Positions 9,486 to 29,154 of a stretch of 64,000 nucleotides of DNA are shown piece after piece. Position numbers and translations under genes: made by a program. The notes beneath the pieces were generated by a model. The model was not told where the DNA came from. It was given only the letters and a program-made list of their open reading frames with translations, and ran no database searches. This stretch comes from Thermoplasmataceae archaeon (lineage in GTDB: Archaea; Thermoplasmatota; Thermoplasmata; Thermoplasmatales; Thermoplasmataceae). The stretch covers positions 22,571 to 86,570 of the forward strand of contig JAVYSB010000006.1 of assembly GCA_038729425.1 (NCBI GenBank), given 5' to 3'. The first letter of the stretch is position 1. Every line of letters begins with the position of its first letter.

Positions 9486-10187
9486 TTAGGAAGATTCGAT
9501 CTTCTTGCTGCTGCCCTGTTTAGGGGTCATATCAGAAAATACCTCTTTCCCTAAATCGTAAGCTTCAGCTTCTCTGCATTCAGATATTAGTTTCCAGAAT
9601 TTTTTCGACTGGAAAAGTGTGTTGAAAAAAAGCGCCTTAGTGTGTAAATCCGGAGCATGAATATCGGCACGAAGTCTCTTTATAACATCAAATCCCTTGG
9701 CGTATTGAGCAACATCCTTTTCAAGCCTATCCCTTATAAACCTTGAAAGCGATGGAGATTTCCCAAGAGTGGAAACGGAAACAACTATCCCCTCTTTCTG
9801 AAACGAAGCTGGAAATATAAAAGGGCTCCGGTTATCATCAACACGGTTAAACAGAACACCACGGGTTAAGCACTCTCTGGATATCATGTCATTCAGTTTT
9901 CTGTCATCTGTAGCAATGATGATTATGTTCTCCTTGCGAAGGTATTCATTTATCTGATCGATGAGGACAATATGCAACTTCACTTTCTCAATGCTGAGTC
10001 CAGAGAATTCTGGATCGAACTCATCAGCTATCGCAATAATCGATTTGCAGTGCGGAATAAGGTTTATTACTTTCTTGTGGGCAGCTTGGCCTCCCCCTAT
10101 AACTATGACTTTCCCTTTTGAAACGTTCAGCATTATTGGAATATATTCTGCTCTCTCAGGGGTTGAGTCCAACTGTAACACCAGCAT
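9486..10187 (-). CDS. precorrin-2 dehydrogenase / sirohydrochlorin ferrochelatase (Met8/CysG N-terminal type)
   Basis: Oxidises precorrin-2 with NAD and inserts iron, completing siroheme. Seen: the start of the Rossmann fold PIMLNVSKGKVIVIGGG with AHKKV, then IIIATDDRKLND and LFNRVDDNRSPFIFPAS, followed by the SVSTLGKSPSLSRFIRD loop, all typical of the Met8 family. 233 aa is normal. ATG 10187 is used; codon 19 is an alternative. It lies 49 bases behind the uroporphyrinogen methyltransferase gene, as the last gene of the dsr operon, so it probably supplies siroheme for DsrAB. Confidence 0.88.
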   Translation of the reverse strand: MLVLQLDSTPERAEYIPIMLNVSKGKVIVIGGGQAAHKKVINLIPHCKSIIAIADEFDPEFSGLSIEKVKLHIVLIDQINEYLRKENIIIIATDDRKLNDMISRECLTRGVLFNRVDDNRSPFIFPASFQKEGIVVSVSTLGKSPSLSRFIRDRLEKDVAQYAKGFDVIKRLRADIHAPDLHTKALFFNTLFQSKKFWKLISECREAEAYDLGKEVFSDMTPKQGSSKKIESS

Positions 10188-10236
10188 TGAAGGTATAGAG
10201 AACGAAGATAGAACGTTTTCCCGTAATATGTTGCGA

Positions 10237-11007
10237 TTAATCCTGCAAGGTTATCTGACGCCCTTCAATGGATCTTGTCTTCATATTCTCGAAACCGCTG
10301 CTAAGGCTGATTATAACGACACAAAGATCTCCGTGCCCGTTTTGAATTCCATTAGAAGCTTCTTCCAGAGTCGTTTCAATTACTTCCTGATTATCTCTGG
10401 AGGCGTTAAATATAATGCGGGTCGTTGCTTCAGGATTCGCACCCGCATCCAGGAGCCTTACAGCATAGTCTTTGATGGTAGTTGCACCCATTAGAACCAC
10501 AAGAGTATCTACTGCACCTGCAAGCTTTTCCCAATTTACCCTGTGTGTAGAATTCTCCATTGCCTCGTGTCCAGTCACAATTGCAAAGGAAGATGAAAAC
10601 CTGCGATCTGTTAGCGGAGTTCTAGAGACCATAGCGGAGTATAGGGCGGAAGTTATGCCTGGCACAATGTCGTAAGGTATGTTTTTCTCTTCGAGGAAGG
10701 CGGTTTCCTCCCACAGCCTTCCGAAGATAATAGGGTCGCCGCTTTTGAGCCGCACCACCATATCTCCTCGCTGAGCATGCTTGATCATTAGGTCTGCTAC
10801 TTCATGCATTTTCAGGCCGTGTGCGCGTGGAGTCCCTCGGATGGGCACGCAGATCGCGCTTTCAGGTATTAGATCTAGTATGCCCTGGGTAACCAGGCTG
10901 TCGTATATCACTACGTCAGATGACTTCAAGAGTCTCAGTGCCCTGACAGTAAGAAGGTCAGGGTCACCAGGGCCGGAACCAACAAAATAAACCTTACCAG
11001 TTGGCAT
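10237..11007 (-). CDS. cobA: uroporphyrinogen-III C-methyltransferase
   Basis: SAM-dependent methylation of uroporphyrinogen III to precorrin-2, the first committed step to siroheme. N-terminal KVYFVGSGPGDPDLLTVRA is the tetrapyrrole methylase signature; VRLKSGDPIIFGR, VPGITSALYSAM and TLVVLMGATTIKDY are the further family motifs. 256 aa is usual. The ATG at 11007 is preceded by GGTGA at five bases, and that GGTGA also contains the DsrE stop, so translation is coupled; an ATG four codons upstream is less likely. Confidence 0.93.
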   Translation of the reverse strand: MPTGKVYFVGSGPGDPDLLTVRALRLLKSSDVVIYDSLVTQGILDLIPESAICVPIRGTPRAHGLKMHEVADLMIKHAQRGDMVVRLKSGDPIIFGRLWEETAFLEEKNIPYDIVPGITSALYSAMVSRTPLTDRRFSSSFAIVTGHEAMENSTHRVNWEKLAGAVDTLVVLMGATTIKDYAVRLLDAGANPEATTRIIFNASRDNQEVIETTLEEASNGIQNGHGDLCVVIISLSSGFENMKTRSIEGRQITLQD

Positions 11008-11012
11008 GCCCG

Positions 11013-11390
11013 TCACCATATTGAAATCATGTGGGCGTTCTCAGTTTCAATTGCGAATTTAGTAACTCCCCACACGTCGCTGATGAGGTCACCCATGTCC
11101 TTCTTGTCCACGCCATAAATCTGGCATGCGTAGTAGCAGGCATAAACATTCAGGTACCCGTCATCCTTGCCTTCCTTGATATTTTTAGTCCATTCCGGAT
11201 CCTTTTGGCTTATGAGTTTCGAACTGGCCGTTGTGATCTTTATCTCTGGCTTTTTCATGAAAGCCTTTAATCCTTCCATGGTCACAAAAATAATCACTTC
11301 ATCGCCCATGGATGCTCTCATGCCACCCTCTATTGACGCAAACATCAGTCCAGACAACTCGTTAGTTCCAAGTATAATCCCAACCTTCAT
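11013..11390 (-). CDS. DsrE/DsrF-like sulfur-relay family protein
   Basis: 125-aa protein with the DsrE-like fold pattern: N-terminal beta strand MKVGIILGTNE, a long central strand EVIIFVTMEG, and a C-terminal GVTKFAIETENAHMISIW. Two cysteines (YACYYACQ, near residue 85-90) may be the thiol site. Family members carry sulfur as persulfide. It lies between the dsrK-like and siroheme genes and follows the first by three bases, so it probably handles sulfur for DsrC. It is a single gene, not the DsrEFH trio of sulfur oxidisers. Confidence 0.75.
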   Translation of the reverse strand: MKVGIILGTNELSGLMFASIEGGMRASMGDEVIIFVTMEGLKAFMKKPEIKITTASSKLISQKDPEWTKNIKEGKDDGYLNVYACYYACQIYGVDKKDMGDLISDVWGVTKFAIETENAHMISIW

Positions 11391-11393
11391 ATT

Positions 11394-12779
11394 TCACACC
11401 TCAATTGCGTATCCAACCAGATCCATCAGCCCCTTGGTCACCATGTCCACCTTATGGTACCCTATTACGTGCGGGAACTGTGCCTTATCTATTGCACAAG
11501 GTGACACGAAGTTGTGCGCCCCTGTCTTCCAGCCATAATACACAGCAGGCCAGCCTGCCCAGGCCCTGTATTCATTCCAATCTTTCTCGTCCGCAAGCAA
11601 CCCGCCTCCAGCACCGCAACAGAATGTCTGCTCCTTGGTGTATTCGGCTTCCACCGTCTCCCTGACTACTGCACTGAGAACCCTCCTAGGTTCATTGATA
11701 AGATTGCCGCCCCTCGCATAGTTGCAGGGATCATGATAATTGTACAGATCATCATTCTTGTTCTTGTCCACCTTTATCTGTCCACGTCTTAGGGCATCAT
11801 CAGTCACTTGGTGAATGTGCTTCAATTCAATCCCGTTCTTGGCCAGTTCGTATCTTACATACTGATCCGCAGATCTCCAGCCATGGCCACATTCTCCCCA
11901 GATAACGGTTTTTGAACCCTTCCTCACAGCCTCCTCCACCACTCGGTTTCCGAAATCCCTGAGATGTTTCTCAGAAAGGAAAAGACCAAAGTTGGCGACT
12001 TCTGTGGTGTAAGAGGAAAACGTATAATCTCTCTTGAGGACATGCATCACCTTGATGTAACCTTTCAGCGTGTCCGTGTTTGTGAACAGATCTGCCGATG
12101 ATGGAATAAAGAGTGTTTCAGCCTTTGGCTTATCAAATGGGACATTGATCTGTTTGCCTGTCTCTTCAAGAATTTCCTGCTCAATGAACGAACCAACATC
12201 CTTAAGGAATTTATCGTGGAGACCCATGTTGTTGCCTGTTTTATATACCTGGGCTGCTGTACTTGCGACGTAATCAGGCACTTGCCCCATTTGTGTCAGG
12301 ATGTCCCTTATGTTTCTCGTTATTTCCGATTGGTCTATGCCCTGGGGACAAAAAAAGGAACATCTACGGCATTCCGTGCACTGGTAATAGTAATTGTAGA
12401 GTTTCTCAAGATCAACTGCGTCGGGTGTTAGCCTCTTCCCCTTGTTGTACATTTTCCTTGCAAGCTCTGCTCTACCGACTGGCGTATTATTCACGTCGCC
12501 GGTGGCTATGAACATTTGGCATTTATCCACACAAATGCCGCAGTGGGTGCAGCTCTCCATGAAATTTGCAAATGCTCGGTTACCCCTCATTTCTATGAAC
12601 TTCTGCACAAAATGTTCTGGGTTATCATCCTTCTTCAGGAATATTTCATTAAGTTGCTTCTCCTTTGCGTGGCGCTCTCCGGTTTTGGCAGCCCACTCTA
12701 TGTCCTTCTGCCTTGACAGCCAGTCTTCTGCTTTGCCACTGGGGCTCTCAAGCAAAATGTCCCTTATTTTTGGCTTCAT
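11394..12779 (-). CDS. dsrK: DsrK-like (heterodisulfide reductase HdrD-type) iron-sulfur protein
   Basis: 461-aa cytoplasmic subunit expected to reduce or oxidise the DsrC trisulfide/disulfide. It has two ferredoxin-type [4Fe-4S] motifs, SCTHCGICVDKCQMF (about residue 91) and QCTECRRCSFFCPQGID (about 133), and a C-terminal region with GECGHGW, HDPCNYARGG and the CCG-type motif FCCGAGGGL, which in HdrB/D and DsrK holds the catalytic noncubane cluster. The start overlaps the end of the dsrM-like gene (ATGA), as expected for a membrane partner pair. Confidence 0.87.
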   Translation of the reverse strand: MKPKIRDILLESPSGKAEDWLSRQKDIEWAAKTGERHAKEKQLNEIFLKKDDNPEHFVQKFIEMRGNRAFANFMESCTHCGICVDKCQMFIATGDVNNTPVGRAELARKMYNKGKRLTPDAVDLEKLYNYYYQCTECRRCSFFCPQGIDQSEITRNIRDILTQMGQVPDYVASTAAQVYKTGNNMGLHDKFLKDVGSFIEQEILEETGKQINVPFDKPKAETLFIPSSADLFTNTDTLKGYIKVMHVLKRDYTFSSYTTEVANFGLFLSEKHLRDFGNRVVEEAVRKGSKTVIWGECGHGWRSADQYVRYELAKNGIELKHIHQVTDDALRRGQIKVDKNKNDDLYNYHDPCNYARGGNLINEPRRVLSAVVRETVEAEYTKEQTFCCGAGGGLLADEKDWNEYRAWAGWPAVYYGWKTGAHNFVSPCAIDKAQFPHVIGYHKVDMVTKGLMDLVGYAIEV

Positions 12780-13537
12780 CTTGCTTCACCCTGCTTTAAC
12801 CCTGTGTGATGGAGAGAATACATCGTTGGATTGGTAAAGAAGGAAAACGGGTGCATCAGTTTGCTGAATGGGAAGTAGAAGAAGAGAACCAGTGTTGCAG
12901 AAAAGTGAATAAGGAAAGGCAACTCTGTTGGAATATTGATTGGCGAGAATGTTACGAGTGACATTATAAACGGAGACACAGCAGAATAAGCGTAATTCCC
13001 TGGGAGCATGAATCTCTCCAATATTCCGGTCACTCCAATTGCAACGATAAGGGAAACTGCAAAATAATCCGATGCTGTATTCAGGTGCCGCAGGTACTTA
13101 TCTTCAATACGTCTGTAAAGAAGAACAATACCAAAGACAACCATGACGACGGCAAAGAATGTCCCTGCGTAGTCTCCAATCGTCTCAAGCGTAGCCTGAC
13201 TGATCCCTGCTGCCTCAAAATAAGAATAAAGAAAGAGGTCTGAGTGTGCGGCAATGACAATCCAGAGACTCCAATGAAAAGCAAGTGAAGAATATCTGAC
13301 CTTAGGATCTCTCTTCATACTGGAAAAGAGGAATATACGCTTTAAGATGTTTACAAAGGCCTTCAGTCTAGTATCCTGCCCTGGATATACAAATAGATAT
13401 GGAAGTCCAAGGTAAGTACCACTTGGCCCTTTCCGCCTGAATATCCATTTCAGGAGAACTGCTAAAACGCCGACAATGAATACCAATACTGCAAGATAGG
13501 CAGTTGCTATGAACAATAATGATTCAATGGACAACAC
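12776..13537 (-). CDS. dsrM: DsrM-like membrane cytochrome b subunit (NarI type)
   Basis: 253-aa protein with five to six membrane segments: N-terminal about 4-28, then around 85-105 (AFHWSLWIVIAAHS), 120-140, 160-178 and 212-228. Histidines in membrane segments (FHW, AAHSD, IHFSAT, LMHPF) could hold two b hemes. It should exchange electrons between the quinone pool and the DsrK-like subunit, with which it overlaps by four bases. DsrJ, DsrO and DsrP are absent, so this is a two-subunit DsrMK. Confidence 0.8.
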   Translation of the reverse strand: MLSIESLLFIATAYLAVLVFIVGVLAVLLKWIFRRKGPSGTYLGLPYLFVYPGQDTRLKAFVNILKRIFLFSSMKRDPKVRYSSLAFHWSLWIVIAAHSDLFLYSYFEAAGISQATLETIGDYAGTFFAVVMVVFGIVLLYRRIEDKYLRHLNTASDYFAVSLIVAIGVTGILERFMLPGNYAYSAVSPFIMSLVTFSPINIPTELPFLIHFSATLVLFFYFPFSKLMHPFSFFTNPTMYSLHHTGLKQGEAR

Positions 13538-13570: not shown

Positions 13571-14644
13571 TTACCTCCCGCTCCCGTTTCTCAATGTGGT
13601 AATACCCCTGACATCAAGATACTCGAGGCTCTGCTCGAAGAACGGCAGACCGGTTCTCTCAAAGAATTTCTCCCACCCTATCCTTTCAATCCAGTCTGAT
13701 ATCCTCTCTCCCTTCTTCGCATCGTTCTTCCAGGTTTCGACAATTTTCCTCACCGTAGCCACAGTCTTCGGATAATGTGGTACTTCATTTGGCAGGAATG
13801 GCACAACGATCCTTCCAAGGGTCGTACCCTGCCTGGAAGCCGCGGCCTTGCCTCCAACCATCAATGCATGACCATCTGTTTTTTCAGGTGTCCTGAAGAT
13901 GATCCCGCCGCAGGCAGCGAGACAGAGTCCGCATCCAATGCAGAGGTTTTCCCTTATTTCAAGAGTCCTTGTCCCGTCGGGGAGAGGTTTGAGCTGTATT
14001 GCCCCAACCGGGCACGAGAATGCCGTCCCCTGCATATCGCATGTCTTCGCAGCATCAGTCACAATAGGTATTTCAGTGTGTATTCCGCCTATGGAGATGT
14101 CAGGGAGGAAGGTATTTCCACACGAACTGGGACAACCGGAAACGCCTATGGCAAGTTTGGCAGGCAGATCCTCTTCGTTGTAATACTTTGAAAGATCATT
14201 CGCTATGGCCTGTAGAAGCGATGGGGCATCAACGGCCGCAAGGGCGCAGTGGAAGAATCCAGCACAGCTTGTCATGTTCCAGAGATGGCCTCCCCATCCA
14301 CCCACCGGGAAGCCTATACTGTTCATTTCTTCCTTAACTTTCTTTGCTGTCTTAAGGTCCTTCACTATGAACTCAATGCTATAGGCCTGCGTAAATCGCA
14401 TCGATCCCTCCCCGTACTTCCTCGCAATAGCAGATAACTTTCTTATGGTCTCAGTACTGTATCTTCCGTTGGGAGTCGAGGGAGACTTGACGGTAAATAT
14501 TTTCTTTCCTGAGGTGTCAGTGTGAGCAATGATACCCGGTTCTACTATTTCATGCATTATCCACTTCCCTACAGAATCCTGCAGAAAAGAGGGAATATAT
14601 TTGGTGTATGGCCTCGGTGGGCCCTCAATTACTGTCTCTGTCAT
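13571..14644 (-). CDS. dsrB: dissimilatory sulfite reductase beta subunit
   Basis: 357-aa siroheme protein subunit. The siroheme/[4Fe-4S] cysteines are C127 and C133 (SCAGFFHCA, CX5C) and C171 and C175 (SGCPSSCGN, CX3C). An inserted ferredoxin domain holds CPVGAI (C211) and CIGCGLCLAAC (C235, C238, C241, C245). Canonical DsrB lacks the full CX5C element and has a CC pair instead, so this subunit is unusual. Length and order after dsrA (four-base ATGA overlap) support beta. It reduces sulfite with DsrA and passes sulfur to DsrC. Confidence 0.88.
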   Translation of the reverse strand: MTETVIEGPPRPYTKYIPSFLQDSVGKWIMHEIVEPGIIAHTDTSGKKIFTVKSPSTPNGRYSTETIRKLSAIARKYGEGSMRFTQAYSIEFIVKDLKTAKKVKEEMNSIGFPVGGWGGHLWNMTSCAGFFHCALAAVDAPSLLQAIANDLSKYYNEEDLPAKLAIGVSGCPSSCGNTFLPDISIGGIHTEIPIVTDAAKTCDMQGTAFSCPVGAIQLKPLPDGTRTLEIRENLCIGCGLCLAACGGIIFRTPEKTDGHALMVGGKAAASRQGTTLGRIVVPFLPNEVPHYPKTVATVRKIVETWKNDAKKGERISDWIERIGWEKFFERTGLPFFEQSLEYLDVRGITTLRNGSGR

Positions 14645-15822
14645 GATGTTACCTCCTTTGATACGCTCTCCGGTATCTCTTTCCTCTCCTCTTCTGATAC
14701 TCCGTAGAATATGTTTGTCCTAAGATCTTTCACGTTCATGGGTTTTGGTTCCATTCCCATAAGATCCAGGAAACCCTTCATGCCTATTCTGAAGATTAAA
14801 TCGCCAAGTCTCTCTTTCCTCGCAGCATGGTCCTGGAACACGTCAACAATCTTCTGGACGTAGTCCATACCCTGATCCATTGTATCCACTCTATCGAGGA
14901 GTTTCGCAGATAGTGGTCCTTTTTTCCCGCGGAGCTTTCCACCCACGTAAACATTGAGTTTAGCTTTCTTTCCTGGCATAAATGCTCCATGTCCTTTTTT
15001 AACGCATTCCATGCACTGTATGCAATCCTCACCTTTTATCTCAACGCCTGTTTTTGTCGCCCTTATTGCGAGCGTAGGGCACGAATGTACAACGTCGTCA
15101 ATTTCTTCCTTGCTCAGCTTTTTCAGGTATTCCTCACGCACCTCTGGTGCACCTTCCCAGGATCCAACCAGAGCTATGTCACCTTTCTGGGTTGCCCTGG
15201 CACAATCCAGTGGACAACCGGATATCTTCAGCTTGACTTTGTGCGGGAATGTAGGATATTTGGCGTAATCGTTGAATCTTTCATAGAAATCGTCCCTGGC
15301 CTTCATGGTGTCAAATCTGGCGTATTCACACAGTGCTGACCCAACACATGTGGTCGTGTTCCTGAAGGCATCACCCGTCGATCCGATCTCGAAACCAGCT
15401 TTCCTGAAATCTACGAAGAAATCTTTGATCCTTTCCTTGGGTATGCCAGGAATCTCGATATCCTCGCCCGTGCTGAGGGCATGAATCATTCCGACACCAT
15501 ATTTGTCCGCAAAGTCACAGTATCCATCCAGCATATCCGAAGTGACAAAATTCCCCGAAGGTATGAGAACCCTAACAACATTTGTACTTTCTCCTATATC
15601 CTGCCTGCTGGAAACTCTCATTAGGATCCCCGTGGGCGCTCCTGGTACTGAAACGTATCCCCCCGTTGTAAAAAGGTCTCTCTTGAGATACAGGGATGCT
15701 GCGTACAGATCAACTGGGTATCTCGTCTTCTCGGCTTCTTTTATATAATTAGGCCAATCTCCCTTCTTTATCTCTTCTAGTATTTTTCTTCCTTCTTTCA
15801 CTTCTGGCAAAACTTCAGACAT
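14641..15822 (-). CDS. dsrA: dissimilatory sulfite reductase alpha subunit
   Basis: 393-aa subunit with the canonical siroheme/[4Fe-4S] motif: C159 and C165 (TTTCVGSALCEY, CX5C), C203 and C207 (SGCPLDCARA, CX3C). The inserted ferredoxin domain has HSCPTLAI (C248) and CIQCMEC (C267, C270, C273). The ATG at 15822 follows AGAGGTGA; the frame stays open 51 codons further upstream, but that part has Cys/Gly/Arg-rich composition unlike DsrA and overlaps the preceding gene. Slightly shorter than typical DsrA (about 415-440). The base at 15822 is shared with the TGA of the upstream gene. Confidence 0.9.
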   Translation of the reverse strand: MSEVLPEVKEGRKILEEIKKGDWPNYIKEAEKTRYPVDLYAASLYLKRDLFTTGGYVSVPGAPTGILMRVSSRQDIGESTNVVRVLIPSGNFVTSDMLDGYCDFADKYGVGMIHALSTGEDIEIPGIPKERIKDFFVDFRKAGFEIGSTGDAFRNTTTCVGSALCEYARFDTMKARDDFYERFNDYAKYPTFPHKVKLKISGCPLDCARATQKGDIALVGSWEGAPEVREEYLKKLSKEEIDDVVHSCPTLAIRATKTGVEIKGEDCIQCMECVKKGHGAFMPGKKAKLNVYVGGKLRGKKGPLSAKLLDRVDTMDQGMDYVQKIVDVFQDHAARKERLGDLIFRIGMKGFLDLMGMEPKPMNVKDLRTNIFYGVSEEERKEIPESVSKEVTS

Positions 15823-16121
15823 CACTTCACCTCTTTGAACTGATTCAGCGCGTACTCTGTAGCCACCGCATAACCATGATCCCTGCAAAACTCGGCAAAC
15901 TTGGCTTTCTCCTGGCCTTGAATCGTTACCCGCATCAGTGGGGTATCCTCCTCCTTCGCATCTATTCTCTCGCACCTTCCAATGGTATTCACGCAGTTAG
16001 GGCATACTTGATCCCTTGTTGTAAGATATTTTAGTCGCTTAGCCTTTACCGGGTTGTTAAGTTCCTCCTCAGACAATATATCAATTGCGTATCCGCATTT
16101 TGGGCAGGTCAGGTAAATCAC
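15822..16121 (-). CDS. zinc-ribbon-like protein encoded inside the dsr operon
   Basis: 99-aa protein starting at GTG (16121), with CPKCG near residue 7 and CPNC near residue 40, spaced like a treble-clef or rubredoxin-like zinc site, plus two further cysteines (GRCERID and EFCRDHGY). The C-terminal 45 residues look like a small alpha/beta extension. It sits between dsrC and dsrA with no gaps, so it is cotranscribed and probably translationally coupled. It does not resemble DsrD (winged helix, no cysteine pairs). Function unknown; a role in Dsr assembly or persulfide handling is only a guess. Confidence 0.72.
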   Translation of the reverse strand: MIYLTCPKCGYAIDILSEEELNNPVKAKRLKYLTTRDQVCPNCVNTIGRCERIDAKEEDTPLMRVTIQGQEKAKFAEFCRDHGYAVATEYALNQFKEVK

Positions 16122-16472
16122 TTAAACACACCCCGTTGGTTTTGGTGCACCAGCAAGCCGGCATGCTCCTTTAGCTGGTCCTGTTGGGAAGAGAGAATAG
16201 ATCTTCTTCAGTTCTGTTCCAGTGTTCTTTACTAGCATCCTGATCGGCGGGCAACTGTCGAATTCTCTGTAGTATCCCCTCAGATAGTTTATTATCTTCC
16301 AGTGCTCATCGGTAAGCTGACTGACGGCTTCATCTGGAGCAATGGCAACCGCAAATTCCGGACACCAGTCCTCCGGGTTCACAAGAAAGCCATCTTCATC
16401 GATCTCAATTTTCTTCTCTGATCCGTCTGCTGATTTAACGGAAACATAGCGTTTGCTTTCGTTGGATTCCAT
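16122..16472 (-). CDS. dsrC: DsrC, sulfur-carrier protein of dissimilatory sulfite reductase
   Basis: 116-aa DsrC/TusE family protein: DEDGFLVNPEDW, LTDEHWKIINYLRGYY and the C-terminal arm GPAKGACRLAGAPKPTGCV. Both redox cysteines are present, C104 and the penultimate C115, spaced 11 apart, which marks a true DsrC able to form the trisulfide substrate of DsrMK rather than a TusE with a single cysteine. GGTG lies nine bases before the chosen ATG; an in-frame ATG five codons upstream directly abuts a TATA-like element (16488-16496) and is less likely. First gene of the operon. Confidence 0.93.
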   Translation of the reverse strand: MESNESKRYVSVKSADGSEKKIEIDEDGFLVNPEDWCPEFAVAIAPDEAVSQLTDEHWKIINYLRGYYREFDSCPPIRMLVKNTGTELKKIYSLFPTGPAKGACRLAGAPKPTGCV

Positions 16473-16487
16473 TTTTCGCACACCCAT

Positions 16488-16841: not shown

Positions 16842-17450
16842 ATGGCATCTAAATGTTCAACAGAAATAGTTTTGGACATTCAAAGAAACGACTGCGAAAT
16901 CCTCAAGGCTATTCACGGCCACGAGTGTTCTGTTGAACAGCTTTCTGTGCATTCAGATAGAACACTGGTTTCTATAAAGTCAAAAGATTGCCATGAAATC
17001 ATCAGGGATATGTCCTATAACGGGATGAAGGTTAGAACCGCCAGAAGAGGAGAAATATGGGTAGAAGGATCAAGCTGCACATTTTGCTCATTTATCTCAA
17101 AGTTTCCTTTTGTTAAGGTACTGCGGGTCATTCCACTAACCGAGAACAGGATACAGGTGCACCTCGTTATACCATCCAGGGGAGACGTCAGGTTTTTCAA
17201 ATCAAAGATGAAAAGATCTGGAATAGACTATACAATTCTCAGCGAAAGGCCATTCCAGCCTAAAGATATGACAGATAAGGAGAGAGAAATGGTCTCCACG
17301 GCACTTCAGAGGCACTTCTTCGATTGCGAGAACAGGACCTCCCTCACGGCAATTGCAAAGGATATAGGAATATCTCCTTCATCGCTATCGGAGACTATTC
17401 GCCGCGGAACAAAGAAAGCAGTTGTATACTATATGGAAAATAAAAAGTAA
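16842..17450 (+). CDS. HTH-10 (bacterio-opsin activator type) transcriptional regulator next to dsr
   Basis: 202-aa regulator. The C-terminal 55 residues form the HTH-10 domain: LQRHFFDCENRTSLTAIAKD, then ISPSSLSETIRRGTKKAV. The N-terminal 145 residues are an uncharacterised sensor-like part with several cysteines (SSCTFCSF near residue 83), possibly redox or metal sensing. It diverges from the dsr operon. A second regulator beside the apr-sat operon (29245-29868) shares nearly the same recognition helix and the same cysteine-pair region, so the two look like recent paralogues dedicated to sulfur genes. Confidence 0.85.
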   Translation: MASKCSTEIVLDIQRNDCEILKAIHGHECSVEQLSVHSDRTLVSIKSKDCHEIIRDMSYNGMKVRTARRGEIWVEGSSCTFCSFISKFPFVKVLRVIPLTENRIQVHLVIPSRGDVRFFKSKMKRSGIDYTILSERPFQPKDMTDKEREMVSTALQRHFFDCENRTSLTAIAKDIGISPSSLSETIRRGTKKAVVYYMENKK

Positions 17451-17527
17451 CTCTTTCTATCTTAAGGAAAGTATTTTGCAAGAATTTCGGTGAATAATTA
17501 ATATTGTGGAATATGTATTGGGTGAAC

Positions 17528-21365: not shown

Positions 21366-21372
21366 TTCCATA

Positions 21373-21403
21373 ATTTTTTAAAAATCATCTTTTTTTATTT
21401 TTG
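21373..21403 (+). terminator. T-rich terminator after the MFS gene
   Basis: Two clustered T tracts start 8 bases after the stop codon, the second of about 20 mostly T bases. No stable stem is needed in archaea. Confidence 0.5.
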
Positions 21404-21855
21404 TACAACGTAATATCCAGTATACTTTTTGGCTTTTTTATGTTTAAGGCTTTTTAGACACAAGGCGCTGTTAGCAGCATAAAAACGGCTGGTCCAATTC
21501 TCTATGATCAGTTCTCAAATCTAATTTTTTTCAGATGGGCTGTTAGATTGAGAATCATCCCATTGTTAGTTGATCAATTAAGCCTTCTTTAAATCGGAAT
21601 GTCAAATACTAAATTTGTAAAATTCGCACTTATAGGTGCAGTGGGGAATATCGCGCTCAAGAACAAGTCCTGTGGGGAAGACCCTTTAGTTTTGTGTGAA
21701 ACGACGCACCCTGGATTTCAAACGCAACATGTTGAGACACACTAATTATTTTTTAATCCTAAAAGCTCCTCAGTGCATTACACCAATTTGTTTATGGAAA
21801 ACCTCTCCTAACCGGTTAGATCAACTATTATAATATTTGCACGCTATAGCAGATC
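21404..21855. other. intergenic region with an imperfect inverted repeat
   Basis: 450 bases with no convincing coding frame. An imperfect inverted repeat has arms TTCTCAAATCTAA (21512-21524) and TTAGATTGAGAA (21543-21554) around a T-rich loop. A TATA-like stretch TATTATAATATT lies at about 21827-21838, close to the next gene's ATG. Otherwise nothing recognised. Confidence 0.4.
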
Positions 21856-22905
21856 ATGATAACGGATGATACCCTTCGGGAGGGCATGCAGGCTCCAGGA
21901 ATGGCGTTCACCGTGGATGAAAAAGTTAGGATTGCAAGAATCATCAGTACTTGTGGAATAAAGCGTGCGCTGGTTGCATACCCACCCGCCCACACATCTG
22001 AAGTAAGGGCTACGGAAAGGATTGTGGCCGATCATATTTTCCCTGAAATCTTTGCGCTTGGTAGAGCTATAAAGGAGGATGTGGATAGCATTGCGGAAAC
22101 TGGCTCCAACATTTCCCTCCATCTCCCTTTCAGACTGGAGAAGCTTGACGAAGCCTTAGATGCGGTGAAGTATGCTTCCTCCAAAGGACGAATCCTGGAA
22201 GTGGCAGTGGTTGATGTCATGAAAAATGATATCAAGGATGTTATCAAGATCGCCAGACTGGTTTCACAGGCGGGTGCCGATGTTGTACAGCTACCCGATA
22301 CGACCGGTATGGGATCGCCCAAAAGAATCAGATCGCTGTTTTCCGAGGCAAGATCATCCCTTGAGGTCGAAATAGAAGCACACTGCCATAACGACATGGG
22401 GGCTGCGCTGGCAAACTCTTATGCAGCACTAGAAGGTGGCGCAGACCATGTGGATGCAACAGTTTATGGAATCGGAGAAAGGAACGGCATCGCAGACCTT
22501 GCATCTCTTTCCGCAGTACTTGAATCAGAAGGAATATCCACAGGAATCAAAGAAAGTGCTGTCAGGGAGGCTTACAAAAAGATACTGGATGTGATATTGA
22601 CCAAGGCTGGAGAGAGATTCTTCTTCCGGAACTTCCCCTCCGTAGGGGATAACGTCTCCATAAACACTGCGGGAACACACGTTGCATTTTCGGACATCTT
22701 CACTGCAGGAGGGATGAGTTTCAATGTGTACGCTGGAAAATCCATGATAAAGCGTGTGCTGGATTTTTCTGGTGTGAAGACAGATGATCAGGAGATTAGG
22801 AAGTTGCTTAATGCTGTGAAGGACAGATCGGCGAACGAGGGGAAGTGCTTGGGGGTTGACGAGATCGTGAAGATGGCAGGTGAGATCATTGGTGAGAGTC
22901 ATTGA
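21856..22905 (+). CDS. DRE-TIM metallolyase superfamily enzyme (homocitrate/isopropylmalate/citramalate synthase-like)
   Basis: 349-aa TIM-barrel enzyme joining or cleaving acyl-CoA and oxoacids. The first strand DDTLREGMQAPG contains the DxxxRE metal/catalytic element; AHCHNDMGAALANS gives the HxH metal ligands; DATVYGIGERNG is the conserved synthase signature. It lacks the C-terminal LeuA-type allosteric domain, as NifV-like and short homocitrate synthases do. The next gene is a CoA-transferase overlapping by 14 bases, which points to a CoA-ester pathway. HMG-CoA lyase is less likely because its GPRDGLQNE-type motif is absent. Substrate unassigned. Confidence 0.8.
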   Translation: MITDDTLREGMQAPGMAFTVDEKVRIARIISTCGIKRALVAYPPAHTSEVRATERIVADHIFPEIFALGRAIKEDVDSIAETGSNISLHLPFRLEKLDEALDAVKYASSKGRILEVAVVDVMKNDIKDVIKIARLVSQAGADVVQLPDTTGMGSPKRIRSLFSEARSSLEVEIEAHCHNDMGAALANSYAALEGGADHVDATVYGIGERNGIADLASLSAVLESEGISTGIKESAVREAYKKILDVILTKAGERFFFRNFPSVGDNVSINTAGTHVAFSDIFTAGGMSFNVYAGKSMIKRVLDFSGVKTDDQEIRKLLNAVKDRSANEGKCLGVDEIVKMAGEIIGESH

Positions 22906-24058
22906 GATTGGCCATATAGTCGCTGGCCCATCTGCAGGCCTGATATTTTCAGAGTTGGGGTACGACGTTATAAAAATAGAGAAGCCAGGGGATGGAGATA
23001 TAGCAAGACGGCTCACAGATTCCAGCGCGGGTGCATTTCCATTCTATAACAGAAACAAAAGAAGCCTTGCGGTGGACCTTGGAAAACCGGAGGGAAAAGA
23101 GGTGTTCCTGAGGCTCGCCAGGGAGACTGATATAATAATAGATAATCTGGGATATGGCGCGATGGATAGAATGCACCTTTCCTATAGTGACCTTTCATCC
23201 ATAAACAACAGGATTATCTATATGTCAATCAAGGGGTATGCTGCAGGGCCAATGGAGAAAAGAAAATCACTTGATTTTCCAATTGAGATTCACAGTGGTG
23301 TTGCATACATGACCGGTCTCACAAACAGGCCAATGAGGGTTGGTGGCTCCATGATTGATATGGGGGCGGCCATGTTCGGCGTTATCCAGGCTCTGGACGC
23401 TCTTATGGAAAGGGAGAAGACTGGAAAGGGGAAGTTCATCGATATCGGATTGTTCGAGACTGCAATGTTCTTCATGGGGCAGCATATTGCAACATACCAG
23501 ATCATCCACAGGGCATTGAAACCAATCAATGAGGAGGGATTTGCATGGGCAATATACGACTTCTTCGATACCAGTGATGGAAACCAGGTTTTCATTGCAG
23601 TTACAACGGACGCCCAGTGGAAGGTGTTCTGCAGAGAAATGAATCTTGGTATCTGCGAGAGGTCAGACCTGGAAAGAAATGAAGATCGGTTTACAAAAAG
23701 GAGAGATCTTCTCGCCCTGATAGCAGAAAGAACTACTAAGATGAAGAAAGTTGATCTAATTCGCCTTCTGCAGGCAAACAACATTGCATATTCTGAGCTA
23801 AAAAGGCCTTGGGACCTGCTTTCAGACGAGCAGGCGGCAAATAATCTGGTGGTTGAGGATTACCTGGGAGATCGAATCAGGGTGCCAGCCATTCCTGGGG
23901 GTGGACACATCGCAAGGGACCCTCCAAATATAGGGCAGGATACGGATGAATTACTAAGGGAATTGGGGTATTCTGAGCTGGATATGGAAAAATTGAAAAA
24001 TATTGGGGCAGTTGCTTTTGCAGGTATAATTGAACAAAAGCGAGTTCATAATCTGTGA
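22892..24058 (+). CDS. family III CoA-transferase (CaiB/BaiF)
   Basis: 388-aa enzyme moving CoA between carboxylic acids. N-terminal VRVIEIGHIVAGPSAGLIFSELG and VIKIEKPGDGD match the CaiB/BaiF start; NRNKRSLAVDLGKPEG follows; the catalytic Asp is expected in the MIDMGAAM region. The GTG at 22892 has GGTGA at eight bases; another GTG lies four codons upstream. It overlaps the synthase-like gene, so product and CoA acceptor are probably shared. A citramalate- or methylglutarate-type acid would fit both enzymes, by inference only. Confidence 0.86.
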   Translation: MRVIEIGHIVAGPSAGLIFSELGYDVIKIEKPGDGDIARRLTDSSAGAFPFYNRNKRSLAVDLGKPEGKEVFLRLARETDIIIDNLGYGAMDRMHLSYSDLSSINNRIIYMSIKGYAAGPMEKRKSLDFPIEIHSGVAYMTGLTNRPMRVGGSMIDMGAAMFGVIQALDALMEREKTGKGKFIDIGLFETAMFFMGQHIATYQIIHRALKPINEEGFAWAIYDFFDTSDGNQVFIAVTTDAQWKVFCREMNLGICERSDLERNEDRFTKRRDLLALIAERTTKMKKVDLIRLLQANNIAYSELKRPWDLLSDEQAANNLVVEDYLGDRIRVPAIPGGGHIARDPPNIGQDTDELLRELGYSELDMEKLKNIGAVAFAGIIEQKRVHNL

Positions 24059-24146
24059 TTTTGTTTCTTTCCAGAATATTTGAACTCAGTGCTTTGGGTT
24101 ATCTCCCCTGTAATATTGCGATTTCCACTGTCGATCCTAAGAAAGA

Positions 24147-24155
24147 TTAATAAAC
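24147..24155 (+). promoter_or_regulatory. TATA box for the HTH-10 gene at 24180
   Basis: TTAATAAAC centred 29 bp before the ATG, which fits a near-leaderless transcript. Confidence 0.4.
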
Positions 24156-24179
24156 GATTAGGTATAATATAAATTATTA

Positions 24180-24827
24180 ATGATCTACGGCAGTTTCAGT
24201 GTTAAAAGCGAATGCGGACTGGCAAAAGTTTCTGAAGCACTCGGCGAGACTGTAATATCCCTTTATGCTGCCCCACTCGACGGTGGGAAAAATTACGTTT
24301 TTTCCATAGTAAACTCCCGAAAAAGTGAAGAGTTGGAACCGCTTCTTCTGAACGATTTTGTGTCTTATAAAATTCACTCCGAAAACGGAATCATTTTGCT
24401 CCAGGGTATAAAACGTGGTCATGGACTAATCAAGGCAATAGTGGACAGTGGAGCGGTACCCTCATTCCCCCTGTTAGCCAGGGGCGATATTGAGGTTCTT
24501 AATTTTATGTCCCTGTCTGATAGATCCCCCTCTGCCCTGGAAGATTCGCTGGGATACGGAAACAATTTGGATGATTTTTTCTTCGATAAGGTCGGAGGAG
24601 AGAGACTTATTCTCGACGTCACGCAAAAGTGGGGGGTACTTGGCACTGTAAGCCTCACAAATGCGGAGAGGGATCTCATAAAAGCTGCTTACAAACATGG
24701 ATTTTTCGAATGGCCAAGGATGTACGACCTTGATCTCATGAAACGTGACTATAACCTCTCGAAGCCGACCATTCTATATCACATGAGAAACGCCGAAAGA
24801 AAAATAATGCAGATGATATTCGGCTGA
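24180..24827 (+). CDS. HTH-10 family transcriptional regulator
   Basis: 215-aa protein of the bacterio-opsin activator (HTH-10) class: the C-terminal LTNAERDLIKAAYKHGFFEWPR followed by YNLSKPTILYHMRNAERKI is the DNA-binding domain. The N-terminal 150 residues are a variable sensor part. It diverges from the two sulfur-operon paralogues: the recognition helix reads SKPTILYHMR, not PSSLSExxRR. It lies between the CoA-transferase and aprB on the same strand and could serve either. Confidence 0.8.
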   Translation: MIYGSFSVKSECGLAKVSEALGETVISLYAAPLDGGKNYVFSIVNSRKSEELEPLLLNDFVSYKIHSENGIILLQGIKRGHGLIKAIVDSGAVPSFPLLARGDIEVLNFMSLSDRSPSALEDSLGYGNNLDDFFFDKVGGERLILDVTQKWGVLGTVSLTNAERDLIKAAYKHGFFEWPRMYDLDLMKRDYNLSKPTILYHMRNAERKIMQMIFG

Positions 24828-25279
24828 TCACCTTTTTTGATGTTCCTAATAATTTCAAGAAATTCGGATCTTATATCTATAGCGGATCGTTTTTAAAGCC
24901 AGCTCTTCCAAGGGCATCTCTGATTCCAGAATATAGGGCTGCGCCAGAACCATATCGCACTTTGCAATGTTCGCCGCTTATTACGCATTATCAGGATATA
25001 GTTGCATTTTATTGCACGTGCACATGATCTTGGAGCTAGAGGGTTATACCTCACCTGAGAGGTTTGATTTTTATTACGGATTTCAGAATGATACCGACGG
25101 GTGTAATGCATGATGGAATTCTCGCTATTTCAGAATAGAGTCCAGAACATCTCCTTCCATGGTTCGAAGACTGGGGTGTTCAACCCGAGACTGGATGCCA
25201 CCGATCTAATTCTGCATCTTGCTGAGATCTTTGTGTGCATTCCATCCACGACATTTTATGTCGAGAATAGGTGAAAAAT
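24828..25279. promoter_or_regulatory. upstream regulatory region of the apr-sat operon
   Basis: About 450 bases without a clear gene. Elements seen: palindrome TGCACGTGCA at 25013-25022; inverted repeat ACCTC-N6-GAGGT at 25048-25063; CACCGATCTAA at 25199-25209, also present before the dsr-side regulator; and TTTTATGTCG at 25254-25263, a TATA-like core found in the same position before the apr-side HTH-10 gene. GGTGA at 25270-25274 is the ribosome site of aprB. Confidence 0.45.
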
Positions 25280-25744
25280 ATGCCGTCTTTCGTGGTTGCT
25301 GCAAAATGCAAGAACAATGGAAAATGTGAAGAAATTTGTCCAAGCGATATAATGCGCGTGGATAAGGAACTTCAAAAAGGTTACAACATAGAGCCAGACA
25401 TGTGCTGGGAATGCCTTTCATGCGTCAAAGCATGCCCAGAGAAAGCTTGTGAGATACGGCCCTACGCCGACGTAGCTCCACTGGGGGCAGAGATAAAGGC
25501 TGACAGGGACGAGACAAGGAACAGCATCAAATGGGAGATAAAATACAGAGACCAGAGTATTCAGAAAAGTTTTGAGTTTGCCATCAGGACCACCCCATGG
25601 GGTGCTATAAGACTCCCGGAACCTACAGATGATAAAAATAACAAAATCGATGGAGAGGAGCTTTCTGAGGAACCAGAGAGGCTTATGACGGGAAAACCCC
25701 TGCCAACAAGAAAATCTGGTATAAAGGGAATAGGGGGCGAGTAA
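25280..25744 (+). CDS. aprB: adenylylsulfate (APS) reductase beta subunit
   Basis: 154-aa iron-sulfur subunit feeding electrons to AprA. After MPSFVVAAKC the protein follows the AprB pattern: CPSDIMRVD, then EPDMCWECLSCVKACPE and PYADVAPLGAEI, then a C-terminal beta region with RTTPWGAIRLPEP that wraps around AprA. The cysteines are rearranged: the first motif is C10, C16, C20 (CX5CX3CP) with no CXXC, whereas usual AprB has four cysteines there, and an extra C57 follows C42, C45, C48, C52. The ATG follows GGTGA at five bases. Confidence 0.93.
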   Translation: MPSFVVAAKCKNNGKCEEICPSDIMRVDKELQKGYNIEPDMCWECLSCVKACPEKACEIRPYADVAPLGAEIKADRDETRNSIKWEIKYRDQSIQKSFEFAIRTTPWGAIRLPEPTDDKNNKIDGEELSEEPERLMTGKPLPTRKSGIKGIGGE

Positions 25745-27571
25745 ATGCAAGTAAAACAAGTGGACTCAGACATTCTCATCATAGGGGGCGGAATGGCTGG
25801 ATGCGGAGCTGCCTATGAGGCAAGGTACTGGGGGAAGAACCTAAAGATTGTTATAGCTGAAAAGGCAAATATTGACAGAAGTGGAGCGGTTGCAATGGGG
25901 CTTTCCGCAATAAACACCTACATTGGAATGAGGTGGGGAGAGCATACGCCAGAGGAATTCGTGAGGTACGTCAGGGGAGACCTCATGGGAATGATCAGAG
26001 AAGATCTCGTGTACGATGTGGCAAGGCATGTGGATTCAACTGTTCATCTCTTTGAAGAGTGGGGGCTTCCCATAATGAAAGATGAAAAGACAGGGCATTA
26101 TAAGAGAGAGGGCCCGTGGCAGATTCTAATTCACGGAGAGAGCTATAAACCCATAGTTGCCGAAGCTGCGAAGAAGGCTGCAACAGAGGTATACAACAGG
26201 ATAATGATCACGCATCTGATGATGTCTTCCACAGAGAAGAACAGGGTTGCTGGAGCGGTTGGGTTCGATGTCAGAGATGGATCTTTCTGCATATTCAGAA
26301 GCAAGGCAACGGTAGTAGCATCTGGTGGAGCAACTCATATATTCCGTCCTAGGTCAGTAGGAGAGGGTTGGGGAAGGACATGGTATTCTCCATGGAGTAC
26401 GGGATCAGCATATGCGCTGCCGATACAGGCAGGTGCAAAGATGGTGCAGATGGAGATCAGGCTTGTGCCGTCTAGATTCAAAGATGGATACGGTCCAGTA
26501 GGTGCGTGGTTCCTGCACCTTAAATCCCAGGCCACAAACGTATACGGGGAGACCTACGACACTAATAGGGATAAACTCAGAGCAAAATATGGAAAGTATG
26601 CTGATCTTAAGCCCATGCCTACCTGCCTGAGAAACGACCTGATGATGGACGAGATAAACGAAGGAAGAGGGCCAATTCTGATGCACACAGAAGAAGTTCT
26701 TGATAATAGGGAAAAGGAGGAAGCCGGGTGGGAAGACTTCCTTGATATGACAATAAGTCAGGCTGGAATATGGGCGGCTCAGAATATAGAACCAAAAACA
26801 ATGCCCTCCGAGTTGGTTCCGACAGAACCTTACATTATGGGCTCTCATGCGTGCAACGCAGGTACATGGGTAAGTGGGCCTTCCGATCTGGCACCAAGGG
26901 ATTACCAGTGGGGATACAACAGAATGACAACGGTTACAGGACTTTTTGCCGCAGGCGATGCGGCAGGCGGGGCAGCTCACAAATTCTCATCAGGGTCGTT
27001 CACAGAGGGAAGAATAGCCGGGAAATCCGCAGTGAAATTTATAAGCGACACCGACGCTAGGCTGCCTGAAGTCGATAAAGACAAAATAGAGGCCTACAAG
27101 ACAGAAATTTTCCAGCCATTCGAGACATACGAGATTGGCAGGCAGTTCATCTCCAAAGGATCGGTTTCACCGTATTATCTCTACCCAAGTATGGGGCTGA
27201 AGAGGCTTGAGAAGATCATGGACGAGTACGCAGGAGGTATTTCAACCCTTTACAGGGCGAATGCGAAGGGAATGAGTCGGGGGATAATGATGCTGAACAT
27301 GCTAAAGGAGGACCTGCAGCTCTTGGGTGCAGAGGACCTTCACCAGCTTCAGAGAGCTTGGGAACTTCATCACAGGGTAGTGACTGCTGATGCTGTGTTG
27401 CAGCACACGCTGTACCGAGAAGAGACAAGATGGCCCGGATATTATTACAGGTCAGATTTCCCGAAGATAGACGATGAGAACTGGCATGTGTTCGTTGTAT
27501 CTCAGTACGACGGTGATCAGGACAAATGGTCACTGCAGAAAGTGCCAGTGCAAACCATAATTGGAGAATGA
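25745..27571 (+). CDS. aprA: adenylylsulfate (APS) reductase alpha subunit
   Basis: 608-aa FAD subunit interconverting APS and sulfite plus AMP. FAD motif DILIIGGGMAGCGAAYEARY at the N-terminus; active-site stretches RFKDGYGPVGAWFLH and GSHACNAGTWVSGP contain residues expected to hold the flavin and APS; the C-terminal half has the fumarate reductase/SdhA-like fold (GLFAAGDAAGGAAHKFSSGS). It starts immediately after the aprB stop codon. Confidence 0.96.
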   Translation: MQVKQVDSDILIIGGGMAGCGAAYEARYWGKNLKIVIAEKANIDRSGAVAMGLSAINTYIGMRWGEHTPEEFVRYVRGDLMGMIREDLVYDVARHVDSTVHLFEEWGLPIMKDEKTGHYKREGPWQILIHGESYKPIVAEAAKKAATEVYNRIMITHLMMSSTEKNRVAGAVGFDVRDGSFCIFRSKATVVASGGATHIFRPRSVGEGWGRTWYSPWSTGSAYALPIQAGAKMVQMEIRLVPSRFKDGYGPVGAWFLHLKSQATNVYGETYDTNRDKLRAKYGKYADLKPMPTCLRNDLMMDEINEGRGPILMHTEEVLDNREKEEAGWEDFLDMTISQAGIWAAQNIEPKTMPSELVPTEPYIMGSHACNAGTWVSGPSDLAPRDYQWGYNRMTTVTGLFAAGDAAGGAAHKFSSGSFTEGRIAGKSAVKFISDTDARLPEVDKDKIEAYKTEIFQPFETYEIGRQFISKGSVSPYYLYPSMGLKRLEKIMDEYAGGISTLYRANAKGMSRGIMMLNMLKEDLQLLGAEDLHQLQRAWELHHRVVTADAVLQHTLYREETRWPGYYYRSDFPKIDDENWHVFVVSQYDGDQDKWSLQKVPVQTIIGE

Positions 27572-27580
27572 GGTAGAAAT

Positions 27581-28846
27581 ATGAGCTATATAGGGCATAA
27601 TGGAAAACCAATAGTAGAGAGAGTGGAGACCGCAAACGTGGTAAGCAGAACGGCGGATATGAAAAGGATTCCAGTGAGGAGAGAGATAGCCCATGAGATA
27701 ATTAGCCTTTCATACGGCTTTTTCACTCCCCTGTCTGGTTTCATGAATCAGGATGAAGTCGACGGAGTCCTCGACAACATGGAACTTCCTGACGGGACAC
27801 TCTGGAGTATCCCCATAGTATTTGATATGTCTTCTCAGAAGATCAAGGAGTACGGTTTGAAAGAGGGGGACAGCGTGCTTCTGGATTACATGGAATCACC
27901 AATGGCGGTCTTCGACATTGAAAGTATTTATAAGTACGACACCGAGCGTATGGCTGAAAAGACGTATGGTACAAAGGACGCAAAACATCCTGGGGTGAAG
28001 AGAACGAGATCATATGAGGATAGGTTCATAAGTGGCAGAATTACGCTTATTAATGAGCCGGTCTTCAATGAACCATTCAGGAGTTATTGGGCAACTCCAA
28101 AACAGCACATTGAGGAATTCAAGAAAAAGGGGTGGAAACATGTGGTCGCACACCAGACAAGAAATGTTCCACACACTGGTCATGAGACGCTCATGAAGCA
28201 GGCCTGGTTCGCTGCTAATGAGGATATGCCAATAGATAACCTGCAGACTGGCGTGCTTGTCAATGCAATAATAGGGGAGAAGAGGGTAGGAGACTACATT
28301 GATGAGGCAATACTACTTTCACAGGACGCCCTGAGAAAATATGGGTATTTTCGGGATAACGTGCACAAGGTAACGTTTACGCTCTGGGACATGAGATATG
28401 CTGGGCCCAGAGAGGCCATATTCCATGCCATATTGAGGACAAATCTTGGCTGCACCCACCATATGTTCGGCAGAGATCACGCGGGAGTAGGTGACTTTTA
28501 TAAACCATACGATGCACAAAATCTTTTGAAGCAGTACAGGGACAAGCTGTCCATTAAGCCAGTATTCCTCATGGAAAACTGGTACTGTCCGGAATGTGCT
28601 GAGGTTACAAACTCTGCACTTTGCAGTCATGACTCAAAGGCACAGAGCTTCAGCGGCACTGTCATAAGAAGCATCCTTACCGATGGAGTCAAGCCTACCA
28701 GGAAGGTCATGAGACCAGAAGTATTCGATGTCGTAATGGAAAGCGCTGCAAAATATGGACAAGGGTCTCCATTTGTGTCTGAGCAGTACCTTAAAGTCAG
28801 GCAGCCTGTTTTCTCGCTGAATCAGATGGAAGTGATTGCAAAATGA
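27581..28846 (+). CDS. sat: sulfate adenylyltransferase (ATP sulfurylase)
   Basis: 421-aa homo-oligomeric enzyme activating sulfate to APS or making ATP from APS. The nucleotide-binding motif HQTRNVPHTGHE (QxRNxxHxxH), the FGRDHAGVGDFY motif and the N-terminal PUA-like region with GFFTPLSGFMN are present. A C-terminal zinc site is visible in WYCPECAEVTNSALCSHD, as in archaeal and reverse-pathway Sat enzymes. It lies nine bases after aprA. Confidence 0.96.
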   Translation: MSYIGHNGKPIVERVETANVVSRTADMKRIPVRREIAHEIISLSYGFFTPLSGFMNQDEVDGVLDNMELPDGTLWSIPIVFDMSSQKIKEYGLKEGDSVLLDYMESPMAVFDIESIYKYDTERMAEKTYGTKDAKHPGVKRTRSYEDRFISGRITLINEPVFNEPFRSYWATPKQHIEEFKKKGWKHVVAHQTRNVPHTGHETLMKQAWFAANEDMPIDNLQTGVLVNAIIGEKRVGDYIDEAILLSQDALRKYGYFRDNVHKVTFTLWDMRYAGPREAIFHAILRTNLGCTHHMFGRDHAGVGDFYKPYDAQNLLKQYRDKLSIKPVFLMENWYCPECAEVTNSALCSHDSKAQSFSGTVIRSILTDGVKPTRKVMRPEVFDVVMESAAKYGQGSPFVSEQYLKVRQPVFSLNQMEVIAK

Positions 28847-29154
28847 ACGCCGACAAAAACGCCATCAAAATAAATGTGTGGATAAACGATGACAGACTGG
28901 AAGCCTTGAAGAAAGCTGGCCTGGCAGAGATGGCCAGAGAGAAGTTCGCTGGCATGATGCTGCTTGAGATTAACTGTACTGAGGACCAGAAGAACTCAAT
29001 TCAACAGCAGTATCCTTCTGCCAAATACGACTCTTCAACGACTCATTCCATAGAGCTGCTTCCAAAAGCAGCAAAGGACAAGATCTTCGATCTGGCAGTT
29101 CATATGAGGTCAACAGGGCCAGAAGTAATAGACAGATTCCTGGCAAAGAAATAG
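28843..29154 (+). CDS. small protein coupled to sat, function unknown
   Basis: 103-aa protein starting at an ATGA overlap with sat, thus translated with it. Pattern: N-terminal beta strand KINVWINDDRL, two helices, one cysteine (LEINCTEDQK), then a C-terminal helix. No metal motif. In Archaeoglobus fulgidus an uncharacterised small gene is also recorded in the sat-aprBA operon; whether the two are homologous I cannot test here. A role as a Sat or Apr accessory factor is a guess. Confidence 0.7.
   Translation: MNADKNAIKINVWINDDRLEALKKAGLAEMAREKFAGMMLLEINCTEDQKNSIQQQYPSAKYDSSTTHSIELLPKAAKDKIFDLAVHMRSTGPEVIDRFLAKK

Follow-up and report, generated by a model that had tools for sequence, protein, structure and literature searches.

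The window analysed here, a stretch of 64,000 nucleotides that forms part of contig C6 (87.7 kb) of the Thermoplasmata genome G000 (1.45 Mb in 15 contigs, 96.5% complete, 0.17% contamination), carries genes for dissimilatory sulfur metabolism in two blocks: a dsr block, in which the minimal set DsrABCMK is present together, and an apr-sat block encoding AprBA and Sat (ATP sulfurylase). On balance, we consider it probable that Dsr serves as a reductive sulfite module, that the organism does not live chiefly by sulfate respiration, and that Apr-Sat either takes electrons from a soluble donor or runs in reverse. Calling G000 a sulfite reducer is therefore safer than calling it an established sulfate respirer.

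Absence of Qmo and HdrA

G000 was examined by profile searches and in targeted stretches. Within the sensitivity of these searches, neither the QmoA, QmoB and HdrA profiles nor the FlpD domain of QmoB (PF02662) found a match in G000 or in the two sister-genus genomes of its family f1, G142 and G314, while G113, an order-level relative, was strongly positive in the identical searches. The description of a near-complete sulfur pathway in the initial annotation, made from the letters of the window, hides this point, as the 96.5%-complete assembly in its entirety, and not just the window, lacks QmoA, QmoB and HdrA. The apr blocks of G000, G142 and G314 contain neither HdrA-type genes nor a QmoC-like membrane protein, and no QmoC-like anchor was found in contig C6 and four respiratory stretches of G000, which together make up part of the genome. 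Neither a Qmo/HdrA homologue nor a linked QmoC-like anchor was thus found that could be the redox partner of Apr. During sulfate reduction AprAB is described as receiving its electrons from Qmo, and archaea without Qmo are described as reducers of sulfite, not sulfate (PMC10504309); the label of sulfate reducer is therefore premature for G000. DsrP-type NrfD (PF03916), which can be missing from archaeal minimal Dsr sets, was found in none of the 20 genomes checked, including G000, G142 and G314.

In G113, qmoA, qmoB and qmoC (390 bits, cut-off 300) lie in the sat-apr region with dsr on the same contig, and this genome would be a better candidate for a sulfate reducer than G000. Its locus L085 (G113:C4:69500-89000) reads sat-DUF6955-aprBA-qmoAB, with a true qmoC and dsrC-zinc ribbon-dsrAB-MK, all on one contig. 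Other genomes with aprA carry different genes near it. HdrA-type genes occur on the apr contig in G330 and G353; in G245, G357 and G183 they lie some 11 kb from apr. In L099:1447-4557 (G330) and L094:2-2514 (G353), HdrA-HdrB-HdrC-like genes adjoin apr(-sat) and resemble the sHdr sulfur-oxidation cluster. QmoC-like membrane proteins are encoded directly beside aprB in L097:1410-2180 (G054), L099:6843-7607 (G330) and L126:5669-6583 (Thermoproteales), and such stand-alone proteins in Apr loci without Qmo are possible Apr anchors.

Genes and phylogeny of the two blocks

Genes were called by NCBIfam and Pfam scans (Table 1). These confirmed the gene list and positions given initially for Sat, AprBA, DsrAB, DsrC, DsrMK and the siroheme genes, the DsrE-like call being weak. 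The completeness claimed up to DsrMK likewise holds, whereas the start of DsrA was misplaced (about 15825, not 15975) and a zinc-ribbon open reading frame (ORF) had been missed. DsrA, DsrB and DsrK score below curated equivalog cut-offs, in keeping with divergent archaeal types. DsrA and DsrB each have an intact siroheme motif C-x5-C/C-x3-C and the ferredoxin-domain cysteines, the CxxCxxC of DsrA being intact. In alignments, DsrM shows four conserved His, and DsrK keeps its CCG motif but has Asp for the final Cys of CxxC, as is the case across its clade, including ARK-15. The DsrB Cys motif is common to all 15 archaeal DsrB sequences compared, whereas DsrB of Archaeoglobus and Desulfovibrio has Thr for the first Cys and CC-x3-C as the second half.

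The DsrAB tree has 17 rows and a small reference set, and its branching is to be read with a long-branch warning. Archaeal DsrAB are split from Archaeoglobus and bacterial DsrAB (100/100), with those of the window on the archaeal side. One clade (100/100) unites G000, G142, G314, G101, G113 and ARK-15, and the DsrAB of G219, G312, G332, G340, G353, UBA61 and YP4.bin104 group with Thermoproteales. Judged by its sequence, the DsrAB of the window is of the archaeal reductive type. The two groups appear to fit the two Thermoplasmatota clades of PMC12948486. The AprA of the window and that of A. fulgidus (1jnr) can be aligned from end to end. The AprA tree gives three origins in the phylum: G113 falls with Archaeoglobus (100/99), G054 joins a Thermoproteota sequence (99/94), and the remaining Thermoplasmatota, G000 among them, form a clade beside Thermoproteota (95/89). 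AprA subclade 1 comprises G000, G142, G314, G312, G101, G353b and G330; six of its seven genomes have dsrA, as against 3/10 in the other subclade.

Two small proteins of the dsr block call for comment. In six genomes (G000, G142, G314, G113, G101 and ARK-15) the zinc-ribbon ORF separates dsrC from dsrA; a Foldseek search with its model (pLDDT 67, built from three sequences) returned nothing at E < 0.001. The DsrE-like protein is 58-62% identical to its G142 and G314 counterparts and, among the families examined, is confined to f1 as a member of the dsr operon; its weak Pfam call gains some support from a match in the Protein Data Bank (PDB), 2qs7 at 9e-9, an entry titled 'Uncharacterized protein' and nothing more. 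The siroheme amidase DsrN is not in the dsr block (no genome-wide search for it was made), and neither are DsrF, DsrH and DsrL, the block having one DsrE-like protein only; DsrL and DsrD were not searched genome-wide.

Proposed pathway and alternatives

The direction of the pathway was initially left open, and we agree. What the sequence shows are the genes, their motifs, the synteny and, at the sensitivity of the searches, the absences; direction, partners and physiology are inferred. Dsr would be reductive because DsrAB of the archaeal type has so far been described as working in the reductive direction only (PMC10591310), because related YNP-TEG Diaforarchaea with DsrABCMK produced sulfide from sulfite and not from sulfate in enrichment (PMC7174415), and because neither DsrEFH nor DsrL lies beside dsr. 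On our assumption, YNP-TEG and ARK-15 belong to a single lineage; ARK-15, whose DsrAB belongs to the clade of G000, has a genome without aprA. In the proposed scheme, DsrAB would receive electrons from outside the dsr operon and put the sulfur of sulfite onto DsrC as a trisulfide, which DsrMK would reduce with menaquinol so that sulfide is released; the substrate, reduced anaerobically, would be sulfite or a sulfite-releasing compound. Sat-AprBA would form a second module interconverting sulfate, adenosine 5'-phosphosulfate (APS) and sulfite, either by APS reduction with a soluble donor (e.g. ferredoxin) or, in reverse, by sulfite oxidation. Several observations weigh against this reading. The two terminal oxidases of G000, a haem-copper oxidase (COX1) and a cytochrome bd (cyd bd), would equally fit aerobic sulfur oxidation, its AprA clade includes Dsr-free relatives with COX1 and with HdrA near apr, which fits sulfite oxidation, and the dsr operon has the DsrE-like protein. 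It is also possible that a Qmo contig was lost from the incomplete genome, though the two sister genomes agree with G000.

Complete dissimilatory sulfate reduction, in which reductive Sat-AprBA, with reduced ferredoxin or another soluble donor, or else some membrane protein, replacing Qmo, would feed sulfite to DsrABC-MK, appears to us possible but doubtful. Every catalytic enzyme is present, AprA is 1jnr-like, aprA and sat co-occur in 9/10 dsrA-bearing Thermoplasmatota, and dsrA is frequent in AprA subclade 1; this has to be set against the lack of Qmo, HdrA and a linked QmoC-like anchor, the described role of Qmo, and the presence of QmoABC in G113, where apr and sat lie by dsr. A related and equally tentative proposal for this family dispenses with Qmo, AprM and a QmoC-like anchor: Sat-AprBA and Dsr would work together through a novel route, in which electrons come straight from ferredoxin or by way of the DsrMK complex. 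An O2-respiring archaeon would then also carry out either sulfate respiration without Qmo or the disproportionation of sulfite.

Sulfur oxidation would run Dsr in reverse, from DsrC-bound sulfide or S0 to sulfite, with AprBA-Sat converting sulfite to sulfate plus ATP and O2 as the acceptor. Besides the oxidases, the DsrE-like protein and the Dsr-free relatives already mentioned, it could draw on a gene resembling type III sulfide:quinone oxidoreductase (SQR) beside dsrK in G054, G113 and ARK-15; the dsr block of the window, however, has no SQR-like gene, a quinone-linked acceptor for Apr was not found, and the type of DsrAB and the lack of DsrEFH/DsrL beside dsr (DsrL within the limit given above) also count against it, so that we regard oxidation as unlikely. 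The type-III-SQR-like flavoprotein genes by dsrK are located at L097:11176-12351 (G054), L085:19013-19501 (G113) and L125:8680-9840 (ARK-15).

Genomic context and host

G128, a genome of the same genus as G000 (as is G367), consists of a single contig of 1.96 Mb and is collinear with the window over 2-8147, 17504-24827 and 31195-46119. Two stretches, and just these, are missing from it. One (about 8.15-17.5 kb) comprises the YaaH-like gene, the dsr block and its HTH_10 regulator; the other (about 24.83-31.19 kb) comprises aprBA-sat-DUF6955, a second HTH_10 regulator and LeuB, and ends at tRNA-Phe. The 7.3 kb separating the dsr from the apr-sat block is ordinary backbone with no sulfur genes. 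Because G128 is collinear around and between both blocks, the sulfur genes sit twice inside an authentic Thermoplasmata backbone.

A contig chimera, or a contaminant fragment binned with Thermoplasmata, could account for the patchy distribution and for the lack of dsrA and true aprA in both G128 and G367. It is nevertheless highly improbable, given the collinear backbone that flanks and separates the blocks in a single-contig congener, the identical block compositions in the sister-genus metagenome-assembled genomes (MAGs), a GC content of 0.45-0.46 in the blocks that lies within the backbone range of 0.43-0.47, and the low contamination. A misassembly between the dsr/apr genes and the 23S gene, raised as a concern at the outset, was sought through the same collinearity and not found, and is very unlikely. 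The Thermoplasmata host proposed initially is borne out as well: the 23S rRNA is 96% identical to that of collinear G128, and by this kinship the host is a member of Thermoplasmatota, not of a group outside it. The order and family names (Thermoplasmatales, Thermoplasmataceae) would rest on kinship and on PMC12948486, whose report of RA-DsrAB in Thermoplasmataceae fits.

Two further ideas about the blocks were considered. A foreign composition is rejected, GC and GC3 both being equal to those of the backbone. A site-specific element integrated at tRNA-Phe is unsupported, with no common 11-base word between the block borders and no integrase in the blocks.

Table 1. Features of the window (DsrC C-terminus given as a sequence token; bits and E-values are those of the named profile or PDB entry)
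Feature	Position	Strand	Evidence and remarks
YaaH/GPR1 acetate-transporter-like membrane protein	8616..9278	-	PF01184 3e-25; AceTr_1 49.7 bits (cut-off 50)
SirC-type precorrin-2 dehydrogenase (siroheme synthesis)	9486..10187	-	TIGR01470 84.8 bits (cut-off 62.3)
Uroporphyrinogen-III C-methyltransferase (siroheme synthesis)	10237..11019	-	TIGR01469 234 bits (cut-off 185)
DsrE-like small protein, conserved Cys (CYY motif)	11013..11390	-	PF02635 18.7 bits (gathering 22.7); PDB 2qs7 9e-9
DsrK, HdrD-like Fe-S protein	11394..12779	-	NF045796 321 bits (cut-off 400)
DsrM, NarI-like haem b membrane subunit	12776..13537	-	PF02665 5.7e-21; NF038037 71 bits (cut-off 300)
DsrB	13571..14644	-	TIGR02066 325 bits (cut-off 341.5)
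DsrA, start reassigned by homology	14641..15825	-	TIGR02064 264 bits (cut-off 393)
Zinc-ribbon protein, 99 aa, two CxxC	15822..16121	-	no curated family match
DsrC, C-terminus CRLAGAPKPTGCV with both cysteines	16122..16487	-	PF04358 8e-36; TIGR03342 123 bits (cut-off 53.5)
HTH_10 regulator, divergent from dsrC	16842..17450	+	PF04967; divergent in G142 and G314 too
Backbone between the blocks: MenC, M20 peptidase, MFS, HMGL-like, CaiB, HTH2	17504..24827	+	59-80% identity, collinear in G128
AprB	25271..25744	+	TIGR02060 141.5 bits (cut-off 135.65)
AprA	25745..27571	+	TIGR02061 913 bits (cut-off 642); 1jnr 1e-219
Sat (ATP sulfurylase), QTRNVPHTGHE motif	27581..28846	+	NF003166 501 bits (cut-off 387)
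DUF6955 small protein, last gene of the plus-strand operon	28843..29154	+	PF22271 1e-32
HTH_10 regulator	29245..29868	-	PF04967 4.7e-17; near apr also in G314
LeuB-like dehydrogenase in apr-sat block	30071..31135	+	homologue located elsewhere in G128
tRNA-Phe, right border of apr-sat block	31195..31267	-	
23S rRNA, lone, archaeal	36531..39451	+	96% identity to G128 23S, collinear

Some neighbouring genes deserve mention. In G142 and G314, too, the YaaH-like gene lies next to the dsr block; at the corresponding place in G128 it is absent. DUF6955 lies near sat also in G142, G314, G113 and G353 and is thus a conserved sat neighbour across several Thermoplasmata families. Next to the 23S rRNA (40537-42616), a protein-kinase-like gene stands opposite a PP2C-like phosphatase gene, an arrangement conserved in G128; at 59400-61166 a weak Snf7-like protein is followed by an AAA ATPase with a Vps4 C-terminal domain (an ESCRT/Cdv-like pair). 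Upstream of the window on the same contig (L072:13521-17501; G000:C6), a gene for a membrane-HdrD-like fusion is followed by two electron-transfer-flavoprotein-like genes, which looks like a link of fatty-acid oxidation to quinone.

Distribution, gain and loss

Across a sample of 390 Thermoplasmatota genomes (dsrA at a threshold of at least 250 bits, aprA and sat over the curated cut-off), dsrA was present in 10/390, aprA in 18/390 and sat in 104/390, and nine genomes had dsrA, aprA and sat together. The dsrA-bearing genomes belong to four families: f1 (G000, G142, G314, G219), f3 (G113), f4 (G312) and f5 (G101, G332, G340, G353). Nine genomes have aprA without dsrA; one of them, G054, has dsrK at a contig end, which may truncate its dsr operon.

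Compared with G128, the dsr and apr-sat blocks were either inserted in two events or lost in two events. Between G000 and G142/G314, identity is 70-74% for DsrA, 78% for AprA and 72-73% for Sat, with 42-74% for core proteins. Because the similarity of the sulfur proteins is about that of core proteins, ancient presence in the family followed by loss or relocation would be as likely as recent transfer.

Relation to known systems

It had been stated initially that Dsr/Apr sets are established for Archaeoglobus and some Thermoproteota. This is too strong, considering the dsrA-bearing genomes counted above and the Thermoplasmata cases already published. RA-type DsrAB is reported in Thermoplasmataceae, GCA-001856825, ARK-15 and UBA184 (PMC12948486), the Thermoplasmatales MAG EUR_06 carries dsrAB and aprAB (PMC9326234), and hot-spring Thermoplasmata have been discussed as sulfate or sulfite reducers (PMC11094006). 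The Thermoplasmataceae with RA-DsrAB and EUR_06 share the phylum, reportedly the family, and the gene types with the window; in the accessible portions of these two papers, neither the arrangement in blocks nor the zinc-ribbon gene is described and the lack of Qmo/HdrA is not presented as a feature, and Sat, Apr and Qmo go unmentioned in the main text of PMC12948486. A partial literature search found no description of the two-block structure, the family-wide absence of Qmo/HdrA or the zinc-ribbon dsr gene.

Amongst the systems compared, the ARK-15/YNP-TEG Diaforarchaea sulfite reducers (PMC7174415, PMC11094006) share the DsrAB clade of the window (100/100) and, in ARK-15, its gene order dsrC-zinc ribbon-dsrA-dsrB...dsrM-dsrK; ARK-15 differs in having no aprA and in the hydrogenase and HdrA-like genes that adjoin its dsr, neither of which is found there in the window. 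The Sat-AprAB-QmoABC-Dsr system of Archaeoglobus has Sat and AprBA in common with the window, the AprA alignment covering the full length, but has bacterial-type DsrAB, another DsrB Cys pattern and Qmo, which the genome of the window lacks. The Thermoproteales set L126 (Sat-AprBA with DsrABCM) likewise combines Sat-AprBA with archaeal-type Dsr, and the AprA clades are sisters; however, L126 has a QmoC-like membrane protein beside aprB, absent from the window, and its DsrAB belongs to the other archaeal clade. The Dsr-free Thermoplasmata G330, G245, G357 and G183 possess AprBA and Sat related to those of the window; their apr contigs carry HdrA-type genes, and Dsr is missing from most of them, whereas G000 has Dsr and no HdrA.

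Significance

Qmo is treated as a hallmark that divides sulfate from sulfite respiration. Three Thermoplasmata with Sat, AprBA and DsrABC-MK but without Qmo/HdrA, together with an order-level relative bearing QmoABC, constitute a natural comparison, which lets one ask where Apr gets its electrons and by what path archaea switched from one of these two modes of respiration to the other. As the blocks are missing from a collinear congener, the sulfite half and the sulfate half each appear to be acquired or lost as a unit of its own. The setting may be acidic habitats rich in sulfate, from which few archaeal sulfate reducers are known.

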